This document shows, piece by piece, positions 8,571 to 14,809 of a stretch of DNA of 33,536 nt. The notes under the pieces were generated by a model. It saw only the letters and a list, made by a program, of their open reading frames with translations, was not told the DNA's origin and did no database searches. Source of the stretch: a virus; IMG/VR virus record IMGVR_UViG_3300032087_002492, positions 1 to 33,536 of that record. The stretch is one strand, 5' to 3'. Each line of letters begins with the position of its first letter. Position 1 is the stretch's first letter. The position numbers and the translations under genes were made by a program.

Positions 8571-9100
8571 GGGATAACTTTGAGCAATGCCTGTCCTGGC
8601 TGCTGAAGCACGAAGGCGGCTATGTAAATTCGGAACATGATCCCGGTGGCATGACCAACAAGGGCATCACAGCGCGCGTCTACGGCCAATGGCTGGCCGA
8701 CGCAATGGACGTCGATGCCGAGGTCACCGAAGAGGTCATGCGGAACATTCCGCAAAATCACGTCGAACAGATCTATCGCCAGGAATATTGGAACCGGGTA
8801 GCCGGCGACAAGCTGCCGTCCGGGCTCGACTGGGCTGTGTTTGACTGGGCTGTGAACAGTGGGGTCGGCAGATCCGCTCGCACCCTGCAGAAGATTGTCG
8901 GCGTCAAAGCTGACGGTGGTATCGGCCCGGTGACCCTGGGCGCTGTCGGCGTCCATGACACAGAGAAGCTGATCACCGACATGTATTCCCGGCGCCAGGC
9001 TTTCTACGAGCGGCTGAAGACCTTTGAGCATTTCGGCAAGGGCTGGACGCGGCGCAACGAAGAGACCCTAGAGCAGGCTGTGGAGCTGTGCCGTGGCTAA
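8567..9100 (+). CDS. GH108-type endolysin (N-acetylmuramidase)
   Basis: A 177-residue peptidoglycan hydrolase expected to cleave the MurNAc-GlcNAc backbone. Residues ~5-95 carry the glycosyl hydrolase 108 signature: WLLKHEGGYVNSEHDPGGMTNKGIT, with Glu16 in HEGGY as the catalytic acid, then WNRVAGDKLPSGLDWAVFDWAVNSG. Residues ~100-165 match the predicted peptidoglycan-binding domain usually fused to this family (TLQKIVGVKADGGIGPVTLGAV). Length is typical (~170-180 aa). There is no signal peptide, so release to the periplasm should depend on the holin(s) just upstream. The start overlaps the previous stop. Confidence 0.93.
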   Translation: MRDNFEQCLSWLLKHEGGYVNSEHDPGGMTNKGITARVYGQWLADAMDVDAEVTEEVMRNIPQNHVEQIYRQEYWNRVAGDKLPSGLDWAVFDWAVNSGVGRSARTLQKIVGVKADGGIGPVTLGAVGVHDTEKLITDMYSRRQAFYERLKTFEHFGKGWTRRNEETLEQAVELCRG

Positions 9101-9344
9101 GCGCAAGAAGGTCAACCTATCGGTCGGTCGCGGCGAGAAGCGGTCGATCAAACAGGGCGGCGGCCTCACAGCAAAAGGCCGGGCGAAATACAACCGGGCG
9201 ACAGGCAGCAATCTAAAGGCGCCAGTCACCGGCAAGGTCAAGCCAGGCAGCAAGGCTGCCAAACGGCGCAAGAGCTTCTGTGCCAGATCCCGGAGCTGGA
9301 CTGGCCCCAGAGGGAAGGCCGCAAGGCGTAGGTGGAAGTGTTAG
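9093..9344 (+). CDS. Small basic phage protein (possibly DUF6321-like)
   Basis: An 83-residue, very Lys/Arg-rich protein overlapping the lysin end by eight bases. The central GGLTAKGRAKYNRATGSNLK and the RRKSFCARSRSW near the end are distinctive and recur in small proteins of many environmental phages; I believe this is the DUF6321 family, but the number is from memory. No catalytic motif. The charge suggests nucleic-acid or cell-wall contact. It is the first of four consecutive tiny basic proteins. Confidence 0.8.
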   Translation: MAKRKKVNLSVGRGEKRSIKQGGGLTAKGRAKYNRATGSNLKAPVTGKVKPGSKAAKRRKSFCARSRSWTGPRGKAARRRWKC

Positions 9345-9353
9345 GAGATGCAC

Positions 9354-9473
9354 ATGTATGGCAAGAAAACCATGAAGAAGGCCGCGAAGAAGGGTGGCCT
9401 GACCAAGAAGCAGAAGACCCTGCCCAAGGCTCTGCAGTCCAAAATCATCAAAGCTAAAAAGAAGAAGCGCTGA
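9354..9473 (+). CDS. 39-residue lysine-rich peptide
   Basis: I chose ATG 9354 because AGGAG lies six bases upstream; the in-frame ATG at 9348 would sit on the Shine-Dalgarno itself. The peptide is about 40% Lys/Arg (for example KKTMKKAAKKGGLTKKQK), ends in KKKKR, and is probably unstructured until it binds nucleic acid or membrane. Its stop overlaps the next start (TGATG). No family recognised. Confidence 0.65.
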   Translation: MYGKKTMKKAAKKGGLTKKQKTLPKALQSKIIKAKKKKR

Positions 9474-9655
9474 TGGCTAAAAAAAGCCAGGTCAACAAGG
9501 CCGGCAACTATACCAAGGCCGGCATGAGGAAGCGGCTATATAAGTCGATCCTCGGCCGCGCCACGCACGGTACCGCTGCCGGCAAATGGTCAGCTCGGAA
9601 AGCCCAGCTGCTCGCCAAGGAATACAAGAAGCGGGGCGGGGGTTACCGAGACTGA
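9473..9655 (+). CDS. Small basic phage protein (possibly DUF5872-like)
   Basis: A 60-residue basic protein coupled by TGATG overlaps on both sides. AKKSQVNKAGNYTKAGMRKRL, then GKWSARKAQLLAKEYKKRGGGY, is a pattern I recognise from small proteins of many marine phages and, I believe, the DUF5872 family (name from memory). Function unknown. Its adjacency to other basic proteins suggests one short transcript producing several cationic products. Confidence 0.8.
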   Translation: MAKKSQVNKAGNYTKAGMRKRLYKSILGRATHGTAAGKWSARKAQLLAKEYKKRGGGYRD

Positions 9656-9888
9656 TGCGCGCACCACAGAAATCACTCAAGGATTGGGGCAAGCAGAAAT
9701 GGCGCACGAAGAGCGGCAAGAAGAGCAGCGAGACCGGCGAGCGGTATCTGCCGGAAGCAGCGATCAAGTCGCTCAGCTCAGCGGAATATGCTGCCACTAC
9801 GAGGGCGAAGCGCAAGGCGAAACGCCAGGGGAAGCAGTTCTCCAAGCAGCCCGAAAGCATTATGAAAAAGACCAGGCGGTTTAGATAA
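9655..9888 (+). CDS. Small basic phage protein
   Basis: A 77-residue protein. The ATG at 9655 overlaps the previous stop and is preferred over upstream in-frame starts. It contains SLKDWGKQKWRTKSGKKSSE, then GERYLPEAAIKSLSSAEYAATTRAKRKAKRQGK and a Lys/Arg-rich end. Similar proteins accompany the preceding family in environmental phages. Function unknown; nucleic-acid binding is plausible from charge. It is the last gene before attP and closes the late operon. Confidence 0.8.
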   Translation: MRAPQKSLKDWGKQKWRTKSGKKSSETGERYLPEAAIKSLSSAEYAATTRAKRKAKRQGKQFSKQPESIMKKTRRFR

Positions 9889-10034
9889 CCGTGTGCCAAA
9901 ACTCTTGGCACACAGATCGAAGCCGTGTGCCAACCGTGTGCCAAACTGGGCGGGATTGGATGGAATAGGATAGTATATGGTTGCACCATAACCCCCTGTA
10001 ATATATCGTAATGGGACATGTTGAGACGCTTTCT

Positions 10035-10064
10035 TGACAGGTTCGAGTCCCGTCACTCCCGCCA
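10035..10064 (+). other. tRNA 3'-end fragment (T-arm, acceptor strand and CCA), attP core
   Basis: The T-arm reads ACAGG-TTCGAGT-CCCGT, pairing except for one A-C position that also occurs in genuine tRNAs. It is followed by acceptor strand CACTCCC, discriminator G and CCA. No matching 5' half (GGGAGTG...) is nearby, so this is only the part that restores a host tRNA after integration. The isotype cannot be told from the fragment. Confidence 0.85.
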
Positions 10065-10070
10065 TTTAAG

Positions 10071-10104
10071 TCGCTGAAAGCATTAGCTTTCGGCGATTTT
10101 TTTT
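10071..10104 (+). terminator. Rho-independent terminator beside the attP core
   Basis: TCGCTGAAAGC (10071-10081), loop ATTA, GCTTTCGGCGA (10086-10096), then eight T. An 11-bp stem with one G-T pair is very strong. It sits seven bases after the tRNA CCA and may be the host tRNA's own terminator captured in the core; it would also stop late transcription before int. Confidence 0.9.
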
Positions 10105-10170
10105 GTGCCTGTGTGCCAAACGTGTGCCAAAGGTTGCAGAGAAAATCATAAGCGGGTGCGGGATTTCACC

Positions 10171-10199
10171 TTGACCTTGACGGAAACCGTCACTATATT
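10171..10199 (+). promoter_or_regulatory. Sigma70-type promoter of the integrase, with embedded operator
   Basis: -35 TTGACC (10171-10176), a 17-base spacer, then -10 TATATT (10194-10199). The spacer holds the dyad GACGG-AAA-CCGTC (10179-10191), related to the GACG...CGTC elements near the repressor and nuclease promoters. The predicted start of transcription is near 10206, about 23 bases before the int ATG. Confidence 0.7.
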
Positions 10200-10228
10200 T
10201 GACGTGTAAGGTCAAGAAAGGGAAAGCC

Positions 10229-11347
10229 ATGCATATCGTAATCAAAGAACACAAGTCACGCGCTAAGGCAGGACACGCAGCGTTCTGTGTAGACACCCGC
10301 TCGCTGGTCGATGGCGGCAAGCGCAGCTTCTTCGCAACCCGGCAGCAGGCCCAGGCGTATGTCGATCACATTGCGTCTGAGCTGGCGCCCAACCTGGGCG
10401 AGAGCTGGGACTGGACGTTCCAGCAGCTGCGCGACCATTTCGTGGCGCACGTCGAGCGCGCACATGAGGACGGCGACGTCACCCGGTCGAGCATGATTGA
10501 GAAGCGCCGGCACAGCCAGACCTTCATCGATCTGAAGCTGAACAACAAGGTGCTGGCCAAGTCGAAGGTGCGCGATCTGACCACCGGCCAGATCCGGCTG
10601 CAGCTGATGGACGAGCTGAAGACTGGCCGCTCCATCAAGACTGTGAAGAACATCATGGGCAACGTCCGCGTCATGCTCGACTTTGCGATTGATTCGGGCT
10701 GCCGCAACAGCAACCCGGCCCTGGGTGTAAAGGCCAAGGGTGCCAAGAGCCATGACACTGGCAAGGCCCAGCGCATCCAGCCGGCAGTGATCGAATCCAT
10801 CATTGCCCACATGCCTGAAGCCTGGGCGCTGCGCGCTCGCTTCGCTGCCACTACCGGCCTGCGCCAGGGTGAGCAGCGCGCCCTGCTGTGGTCTGACATC
10901 GATCTGGACAACGGCTATGTGTATGTCACCAAGGCTGTGAAGCACCGCGCCGAGGTAGGCGACACCAAGACCGCCAAGGGCAACCGCAAGGTGCCACTGA
11001 CCCCCGACGTCAAACAGCTGCTGCAGGAGCTCTATCTGCGCGCTGGGCGGCCGTCAGCTGGTCAGCTGGTGTTCCCTAGCACAACCGGCAACGTGCTCTC
11101 TGACAGCCGTTTCCTGGCCGCTCTGCACAAGGCCTGTGACGCAGCTGGCGTCGAGCGCATCCGGTGGCACGATCTGCGCCACTACTACGCGAGCCGGATT
11201 TTGCAGGCGTTCAACGGTGACTGGTGGACAGTGACCAACCTGATGGGCCACGAGAGCATCAAGACAACCACCAACATCTATGGCCACTGGCTCGAAAGCG
11301 AAGAGCAGGACGCCAAGATCGCGGACGCTATCTCGGGGGCGTTCTAA
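10229..11347 (+). CDS. int: Tyrosine-type site-specific integrase
   Basis: A 372-residue recombinase that should integrate the phage at a host tRNA 3' end. The catalytic set is complete: Arg212 (TTGLRQGEQRALLW), a beta-hairpin Lys near 250 (TKTAKGNRKVPL), His314 and Arg317 (HDLRHYYAS), His341 (LMGHESIKTT) and Tyr351 (NIYGHW). Residues 1-~60 are the likely arm-binding part and ~60-170 the core-binding SAM-like domain. I start at ATG 10229 because the longer open frame begins inside the predicted -10 box. The gene lies next to attP on the same strand and ends just before a strong terminator. Confidence 0.95.
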   Translation: MHIVIKEHKSRAKAGHAAFCVDTRSLVDGGKRSFFATRQQAQAYVDHIASELAPNLGESWDWTFQQLRDHFVAHVERAHEDGDVTRSSMIEKRRHSQTFIDLKLNNKVLAKSKVRDLTTGQIRLQLMDELKTGRSIKTVKNIMGNVRVMLDFAIDSGCRNSNPALGVKAKGAKSHDTGKAQRIQPAVIESIIAHMPEAWALRARFAATTGLRQGEQRALLWSDIDLDNGYVYVTKAVKHRAEVGDTKTAKGNRKVPLTPDVKQLLQELYLRAGRPSAGQLVFPSTTGNVLSDSRFLAALHKACDAAGVERIRWHDLRHYYASRILQAFNGDWWTVTNLMGHESIKTTTNIYGHWLESEEQDAKIADAISGAF

Positions 11348-14143: not shown

Positions 14144-14176
14144 ACGTATCACCACATGACGGCAGACGTCAAGTCA
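14144..14176 (-). promoter_or_regulatory. Predicted nuclease-operon promoter with repeated operator element
   Basis: On the minus strand TTGACG (14172-14167) is followed after 16-17 bases by GATACG/ATACGT. It lies within the 19-base element GACGGCAGACGTCAAGTCA (14158-14176), which differs at one base from the copy at 14864-14882. The element contains the dyad GACG-GCAGA-CGTC. Expression of the nuclease is therefore likely tied to the same repressor. The -10 is poor. Confidence 0.5.
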
Positions 14177-14809
14177 CTTGGCTTTTACTATCTGCACACC
14201 GCGCAGATCCGGGCGCCGGATAATCGAAATAATCGGGCAGGCCCACAAAAGTTTTACACCAGAGGCGTTATTGAAACCTGGTGCGGTATTAGCGTGAATT
14301 GTGTATGTGCCACCTGGCTCGGGGTAGACCAGCCCCCACCACAGCTCACCGTCAGGCGTCATTGCATATGATGGGTGCTGAAAACACTCTTTGGATACGC
14401 GGCCTTCCAGTGCCGGCTTGTAATCGATTATCTCAAGCTGGCCGTTCCACATCTCGAAATGCCAAGGCACGTCACCATTGAGGCTAGCTCGGACGCAGGC
14501 TACATCAGCCTCGTAAAAATCGGACAGATAAACCAGGTCTGGTGTTGTATCCAAATCAAGATACGGCTGGCCTTGTTCGTTAAGACGCCAATCTGCGATG
14601 ACTGACAAAGGCTTTGTCGGAAACAGCACCTCTTGTGCCGTGCAGCCAAGGATCTTGCCGTATTGCTCGGCGTCCTGCAGCGTCATTTGTATCTTGCCGT
14701 GGACGTGACGAGACAAGGTCTCCGGCGTGATGCCCTTGGCTACCGCGACCTCTTTCTTTGACATGCCGCTCTCGGCAATCTTCTTGTCCAGATTATTAGG
14801 CATTTGCAT
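14174..14809 (-). CDS. CI-like phage repressor
   Basis: A 211-residue protein with an N-terminal Cro/CI-type helix-turn-helix (residues ~5-62: LDKKIAESGMSKKEVAVAKGITPETLSRHVHGK, then DAEQYGKILG). The C-terminal beta-rich domain (residues ~70-211: LSVIADWRLNEQGQPYLDL, DVACVRASLNGDVPWHFEMWNG, TYTIHANTAPG, ISIIRRPDLRGVQIV) resembles an S24/LexA-fold oligomerisation domain. An obvious Ser/Lys self-cleavage pair was not seen, so RecA-triggered cleavage is uncertain. GGTGG precedes ATG 14809 by six bases. It is divergent from the Cro-like gene and flanked by two copies of a probable operator. Confidence 0.85.
   Translation of the reverse strand: MQMPNNLDKKIAESGMSKKEVAVAKGITPETLSRHVHGKIQMTLQDAEQYGKILGCTAQEVLFPTKPLSVIADWRLNEQGQPYLDLDTTPDLVYLSDFYEADVACVRASLNGDVPWHFEMWNGQLEIIDYKPALEGRVSKECFQHPSYAMTPDGELWWGLVYPEPGGTYTIHANTAPGFNNASGVKLLWACPIISIIRRPDLRGVQIVKAK

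Follow-up and report, generated by a model that had tools for sequence, protein, structure and literature searches.

The integrase of phage lambda is bivalent, its N-terminal domain binding arm sites on both sides of the attP core and its C-terminal domains binding the core (PMC4880445). The locus described here is alike in layout, but the lambda core is not a tRNA end, and sites for IHF, Xis and Fis are known in lambda. The cluster K1 mycobacteriophages CrimD, Angelica, Anaya and Adephagia possess an attP core formed by the 3′ end of an RNA gene (tmRNA in their case), paired arm sites on both sides and a terminator between the core and the right arms (Pope et al. 2011, PMC3203893), all of which recur here. 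In these four phages a change in one base of the arm consensus was seen to go with changes at residues 17 and 19 of the integrase. Both the layout and the idea of covariation are therefore already known. Unlike the present set, the K1 case consists of four phages with one main variable consensus base and without a code. Comparing two K1 integrase sequences, we found a further Q26E change in a GK-Q/E motif, which may match residue 32 of the integrase described below, the register of the motif being uncertain. Searches of open-access papers turned up no position-by-position code backed by independent replicates. A SAR116 host was inferred from a tRNA-matching attP for the Mediterranean metagenomic group G16 phages (PMC3861242), which were linked to SAR116 through integrase and att site by the same type of inference as here. 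Arm sites do not figure in the passages of that paper considered here.

The stretch of DNA analysed here (the window), from a marine phage, is the whole of IMG/VR virus record IMGVR_UViG_3300032087_002492, 33,536 bp long, linear and without end repeats. Its portal was 59% identical to that of HTVC010P-type pelagiphages over 99% of the portal length, and its head and tail genes were those conserved in this type, the portal having been compared directly and the remaining genes by family only. Genome size was also similar. Unlike these pelagiphages, the window had a G+C content of 56%, and no phage with a closely related integrase was found in INPHARED, where the best matches listed were at about 23-31%. 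Both contig ends lay inside one late region that was co-linear in the relative G444, with about 0.73 kb missing between them. The window is thus a near-complete genome of an HTVC010P-like podophage, opened in its late genes. An 1829-aa open frame joining the window end (33536) to its start (1) was considered as proof of circularity and rejected. This join is a coincidence, because G444 has two separate frames about 0.73 kb apart.

Phage genes were found on both sides of the attP, as the initial annotation had stated. To the left were genes for an internal virion protein, a tail fibre and an endolysin, followed by small basic phage ORFs. To the right were the integrase, a repressor-like gene on the opposite strand, a DNA methyltransferase, the large terminase, the portal, the capsid and tail genes. 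The repressor-like gene (14174-14809, minus strand), which matched transcriptional repressor PHROGs, fits a temperate phage. The small basic ORFs stand in a row from the endolysin to the attP (9093-9888) and are kept in L041 and other relatives. The last of them (phrog_14910; 9586-9888, plus strand) adjoins the attP and holds the same place in L041. This contig (WTIT01000165.1, 1-6201) was binned as a Euryarchaeota MAG but consists of phage DNA with GGTCACA-type arm sites, and the assignment is almost surely due to mis-binning. Its right end is co-linear with the window up to about 10.2 kb. The DNA left of position 9889, a host origin of which would have refuted the initial reading, is consequently phage DNA. 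An uncut attP with arm sites and phage DNA on either side cannot be a single integrated prophage, so the earlier reading of a non-integrated form was upheld. By itself, finding an attP intact in a phage genome is nothing out of the ordinary.

The attP contained six exact copies of the arm-type site GTGTGCCAA, all on the plus strand except one, in the arrangement of three direct and one inverted copy to the left and two direct copies to the right that had been described initially. The outermost left copy (9891-9899) was found in the same place in L121, L123 and L124. It was followed by the inverted copy (9905-9913, minus strand), which most relatives keep, and by a direct pair 11 bp apart (9925-9933 and 9936-9944). 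The right pair (10111-10119 and 10122-10130) had the same 11 bp spacing. No further exact copy was detected in the whole window. When the 340-bp attP stretch was shuffled 2000 times with dinucleotides preserved, any 9-mer reached at most three copies and never six, and no other 9-mer was present six times inside any other 340-bp stretch of the window. Six such repeats around a tRNA 3′ end are far above chance. The core GGTTCGAGTCCCGTCACTCCCGCCA (10040-10064, plus strand) was the last 25 nt of a tRNA-Asp(GTC), from the T loop to the CCA, and ARAGORN detected no complete tRNA in the window. Between the core and the right pair was an intrinsic terminator (10068-10104, plus strand), whose stem-loop with a T tract occupies 10068-10099 (-20.2 kcal/mol, z -5.5) and which is kept in relatives. 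A putative integrase promoter, TTGACC-17-TATATT, was recognised by consensus match at 10171-10199 (plus strand). It is surrounded by a dyad, CTTGACC...GGTCAAG (10169-10216), which has a similar form in relatives and is possibly an operator or an excisionase site.

The adjacent gene (10229-11347, plus strand) encodes a tyrosine integrase of 372 aa, recognised by its catalytic domain (PF00589, 7.8e-25) and by the integrase PHROG. The catalytic residues R212, H314, R317, H341 and Y351 were invariant among 14 relatives. An N-terminal arm-binding domain of the beta-beta-beta-alpha form was predicted for residues 1-56 (10229-10396, plus strand) by AlphaFold2 run on the domain alone (mean pLDDT 80), with strands at residues 5-7, 19-22 and 32-35 and a helix at 38-52. 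Three strands and a helix fit the description that PMC8138268 gives of arm-binding domains in integrases of the lambda and Tn916 types. Pfam Arm-DNA-bind_4 was matched weakly, in two of 60 members, and a PDB sequence search with the N-domain found nothing. Fold searches with the domain returned no integrase match, a result that carries no weight against an arm-binding fold, but neither they nor the Pfam search confirmed it.

Integrase relatives were fetched from viral contigs. Their attP keep the layout, with repeats flanking the core on both sides and paired at 11-12 bp spacing in dozens of phages, but the repeat itself varies (GTGTGCCAA, GGGTGCCAA, GGGTCACAA, GCATCACAA, CAGTGCCTA and others). 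A change is common to all the sites of one attP, and repeats differ even between close relatives. Motifs were identified de novo as clusters of 7-mers that included a direct pair; the integrase played no part in this step, and the register of the motifs was set by iteration. When all integrase columns were compared with all motif positions, the five strongest associations (residue 16 with base 2, 32 with base 5, 32 with base 6, 25 with base 8 and 14 with base 2) fell within the first 32 residues. Lysine or arginine at residue 16 went with G at base 2 in 30 of 31 loci (one ambiguous), histidine with T in 8/8, tryptophan with C in 12/12, and leucine, isoleucine, valine or glutamine with A in 6/6. 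At residue 32, arginine went with G at base 5 in all 33 loci and glutamine or glutamate with C in 23 of 24. At residue 25, tyrosine went with T at base 8 in 16 of 17 loci and serine, threonine, alanine or glycine with A in 37 of 37. The single misses at residues 32 and 25 were the same locus, L186, the motif of which was out of register; it was corrected by hand for the tree and the cross-validation, and the counts given here are without this correction. In the window, H16 (codon 10274-10276), R32 (10322-10324) and S25 (10301-10303), all on the plus strand, predict T2, G5/C6 and A8 respectively, which is GTGTGCCAA. In the lambda system, Glu34 of the integrase and C as base 5 of the arm consensus would agree with the glutamate-cytosine pairing.

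Shared ancestry was controlled for with a tree of the catalytic part, from which the N-domain was left out, by counting independent pairs on well-supported branches. The pairs agreed for R32/G5 (9/9, p 0.004), K/R16/G2 (13/14, one pair undecided and none against, p 0.0002), H16/T2 (8/8, p 0.008), Y25/T8 (11/11, p 0.001) and L/I/V/Q16/A2 (5/5). When whole clusters at 70% identity were left out, columns 16, 32 and 25 predicted their bases in 95, 98 and 100% of cases, against baselines of 54, 58 and 66%. These columns were the best among all 372, the next best reaching 79, 84 and 77%. The R/Q rule, which was noticed in the earliest set, held in loci fetched later. Rules fixed in writing before use were correct in loci outside the fit for base 5 (6/6), base 8 (4/4) and base 2 (5/6, failing in L171). 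Exceptions to the code were L171 and L434 (R16 with A2), L434 (Q32 with T5) and L381 (R32 with A5). In distant clades (hmm score <400) the R32-G5 pairing held in most cases (L194, L196, L202, L217, L375, L442, L446 and L453, with motif registers partly read by eye), L381 and L434 departing from it. The residue-16 and residue-25 rules are inapplicable there because loop lengths differ.

Since the repeats lie on both sides of the core and track three residues of the integrase N-domain, we take them to be the integrase arm sites. The simplest reading of the covariation is that residues 16, 32 and 25 would lie opposite bases 2, 5-6 and 8, respectively, within the major groove. Very probably, then, the attP in the window is complete and non-integrated and belongs to a temperate HTVC010P-like podophage targeting the tRNA-Asp(GTC) of SAR116-type Alphaproteobacteria, with arm repeats that are read position by position by the integrase N-domain.

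It could be argued that linkage alone produces the correlation: recombination would swap the attP together with the 5′ end of int, and the residues would make no base contact. The attP and int do adjoin, and close pairs differ far more in the arm sites and the first ~120 bp of int than elsewhere. We nevertheless consider this explanation improbable. Linkage predicts a similar correlation for most columns of the N-domain, yet one column per base stands out (16, 32 and 25), and each residue pairs with the same base in distant clades. Moreover, in the pair L135/L138 the 60 bp before int are without any difference although they lie between two divergent zones. Among close pairs, differences were found at 31% of positions inside the arm sites and 7% outside in L135/L138, and at 67% and 12% in L290/L291. 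The window and L124, which share a motif, differed at 4% inside and 24% outside, and the inside/outside contrast was absent from the motif-switched pairs window/L121, L140/L141 and L155/L336. In the tree, the catalytic domains of L160 and L317 were identical, whereas their N-domains and motifs differed. The divergence of N-domain and arm sites would be explained by selection against cross-reaction between integrases that share a tRNA, or by repeated local recombination.

Binding of the repeats by an excisionase, a repressor or a host factor in place of the integrase is extremely improbable. Repeats near int can be regulator sites, and the CTTGACC/GGTCAAG dyad also flanks the int promoter, but in dozens of phages these repeats stand as spaced pairs to either side of the core, and they follow integrase residues specifically. 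There is likewise very little to recommend an integrated tandem prophage or a chimeric assembly over a free, replicating or virion genome. A tandem double prophage would also have an internal attP, and the record is linear and without end repeats. However, no host gene was recognised in the window, L041 and the contigs of relatives show the same gene order across the attP, and the contig ends of the window lie in late genes that are co-linear with G444 across the break.

The core sequence GGTTCGAGTCCCGTCACTCCCGCCA was present in well over 100 genome contigs, mostly of Alphaproteobacteria, and was the end of tRNA-Asp(GTC) in all 14 loci scanned. The initial annotation had proposed a 30-base core ending a tRNA gene. 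A real tRNA gene end was indeed found, but identity with host genes extends over 25 nt, from the GG before the T loop to the CCA, and the three preceding nucleotides are ACA in the window and GCG in the hosts. The same annotation had placed the terminator inside the shared core, so that integration could preserve the host's own, and nearly the same terminator does follow some SAR116 tRNA-Asp genes (L257 and L100). These loci, however, have decayed arm repeats as well, together with sequence of the phage promoter region, and are thus remnants. In SAR116-family tRNA-Asp genes free of remnants, the match with the phage stops at the CCA plus a few nucleotides, whereas the phages have the terminator in common on their integrase side. 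A shared core that takes in the terminator is therefore very unlikely. The terminator is phage DNA that comes to lie behind the restored tRNA, and integration hands the tRNA a phage terminator instead of the host's.

Integrated relatives were represented by decayed copies. L257, which belongs to the SAR116-family genome G012, has an intact tRNA-Asp with a phage-type terminator behind it, then a pair of TGTGCCA sites spaced 11 bp apart and a stretch resembling the phage pre-int region. The tRNA, the terminator and the TGTGCCA sites make up an attL-type remnant. Next come one 646-aa gene and, with a further right-arm remnant, a second fragment of a tRNA 3′ end. A left-arm remnant ending at AAGGTTCG is last in the series, about 2.4 kb past the attL-type remnant. 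The 646-aa gene (L257 2300-4240), standing between two att remnants, encodes a secreted or surface-type protein, and a similar gene seems to come after the remnant in L064. A tRNA-Asp 3′ fragment with a similar remnant and GGTCACA sites was detected in the SAR116 single cell AG-895-F06 (G001). Decayed copies of related phages with split arms at this tRNA, as in SAR116 loci L257 and L064, indicate that the tRNA-Asp site has been used in SAR116. Searches of 385 Alphaproteobacteria and 61 SAR116-family genomes revealed no intact prophage, and for this reason we infer the host from tRNA identity and the remnants. The tRNA-Asp 3′ end is common to Pelagibacter and many others, while the remnants were found in SAR116 and the G+C content of the window is 56%.

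Under the preferred reading, the phage would insert at the 3′ end of tRNA-Asp(GTC), the adjacent integrase cutting and rejoining the core somewhere within the 25-nt tRNA end. The N-terminal beta-sheet domain of each subunit would hold 9-bp repeats on both arms, residue 16 reading base 2, residue 32 bases 5-6 and residue 25 base 8. Integration would place the phage copy of the tRNA 3′ end and the phage terminator behind the 5′ part of the host tRNA. The direction and specificity of phage integration depend on arm sites, which usually need footprinting to be mapped. If the three-residue code is true, arm sites, and hence att sites, could be predicted from integrase sequences in uncultured phages, and dispersed sites and their reader would be seen to change together within closely related phages. 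The code yields single-residue predictions that are open to direct bench testing, and it hints at integrases that are naturally orthogonal while sharing one tRNA target. With slightly less than even confidence, we suggest that the arm-binding domains of this integrase clade recognise DNA through a modular code, and that selection against cross-excision and re-integration among phages sharing one tRNA drives repeated switching of this code in step with all five or six arm sites and so gives rise to orthogonal integrase/att pairs.

The attP of L135-L141, a subclade of the same integrases, contained a different tRNA 3′ end, GGGTTCGAGCCCCGTCAACCGCGCCA, and the target tRNA has therefore changed within the integrase family. 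In a planctomycete MAG (L021, 3832-4279), three tRNA-Asp 3′ ends were found in tandem, about 210 bp apart. In the SAR116 cell AG-895-F06, the tRNA-Asp of L259 is followed, after position 1496, by repeats of another type, TTGTTGTAG, and a different terminator. The same tRNA-Asp may thus serve a second family of phages or islands.
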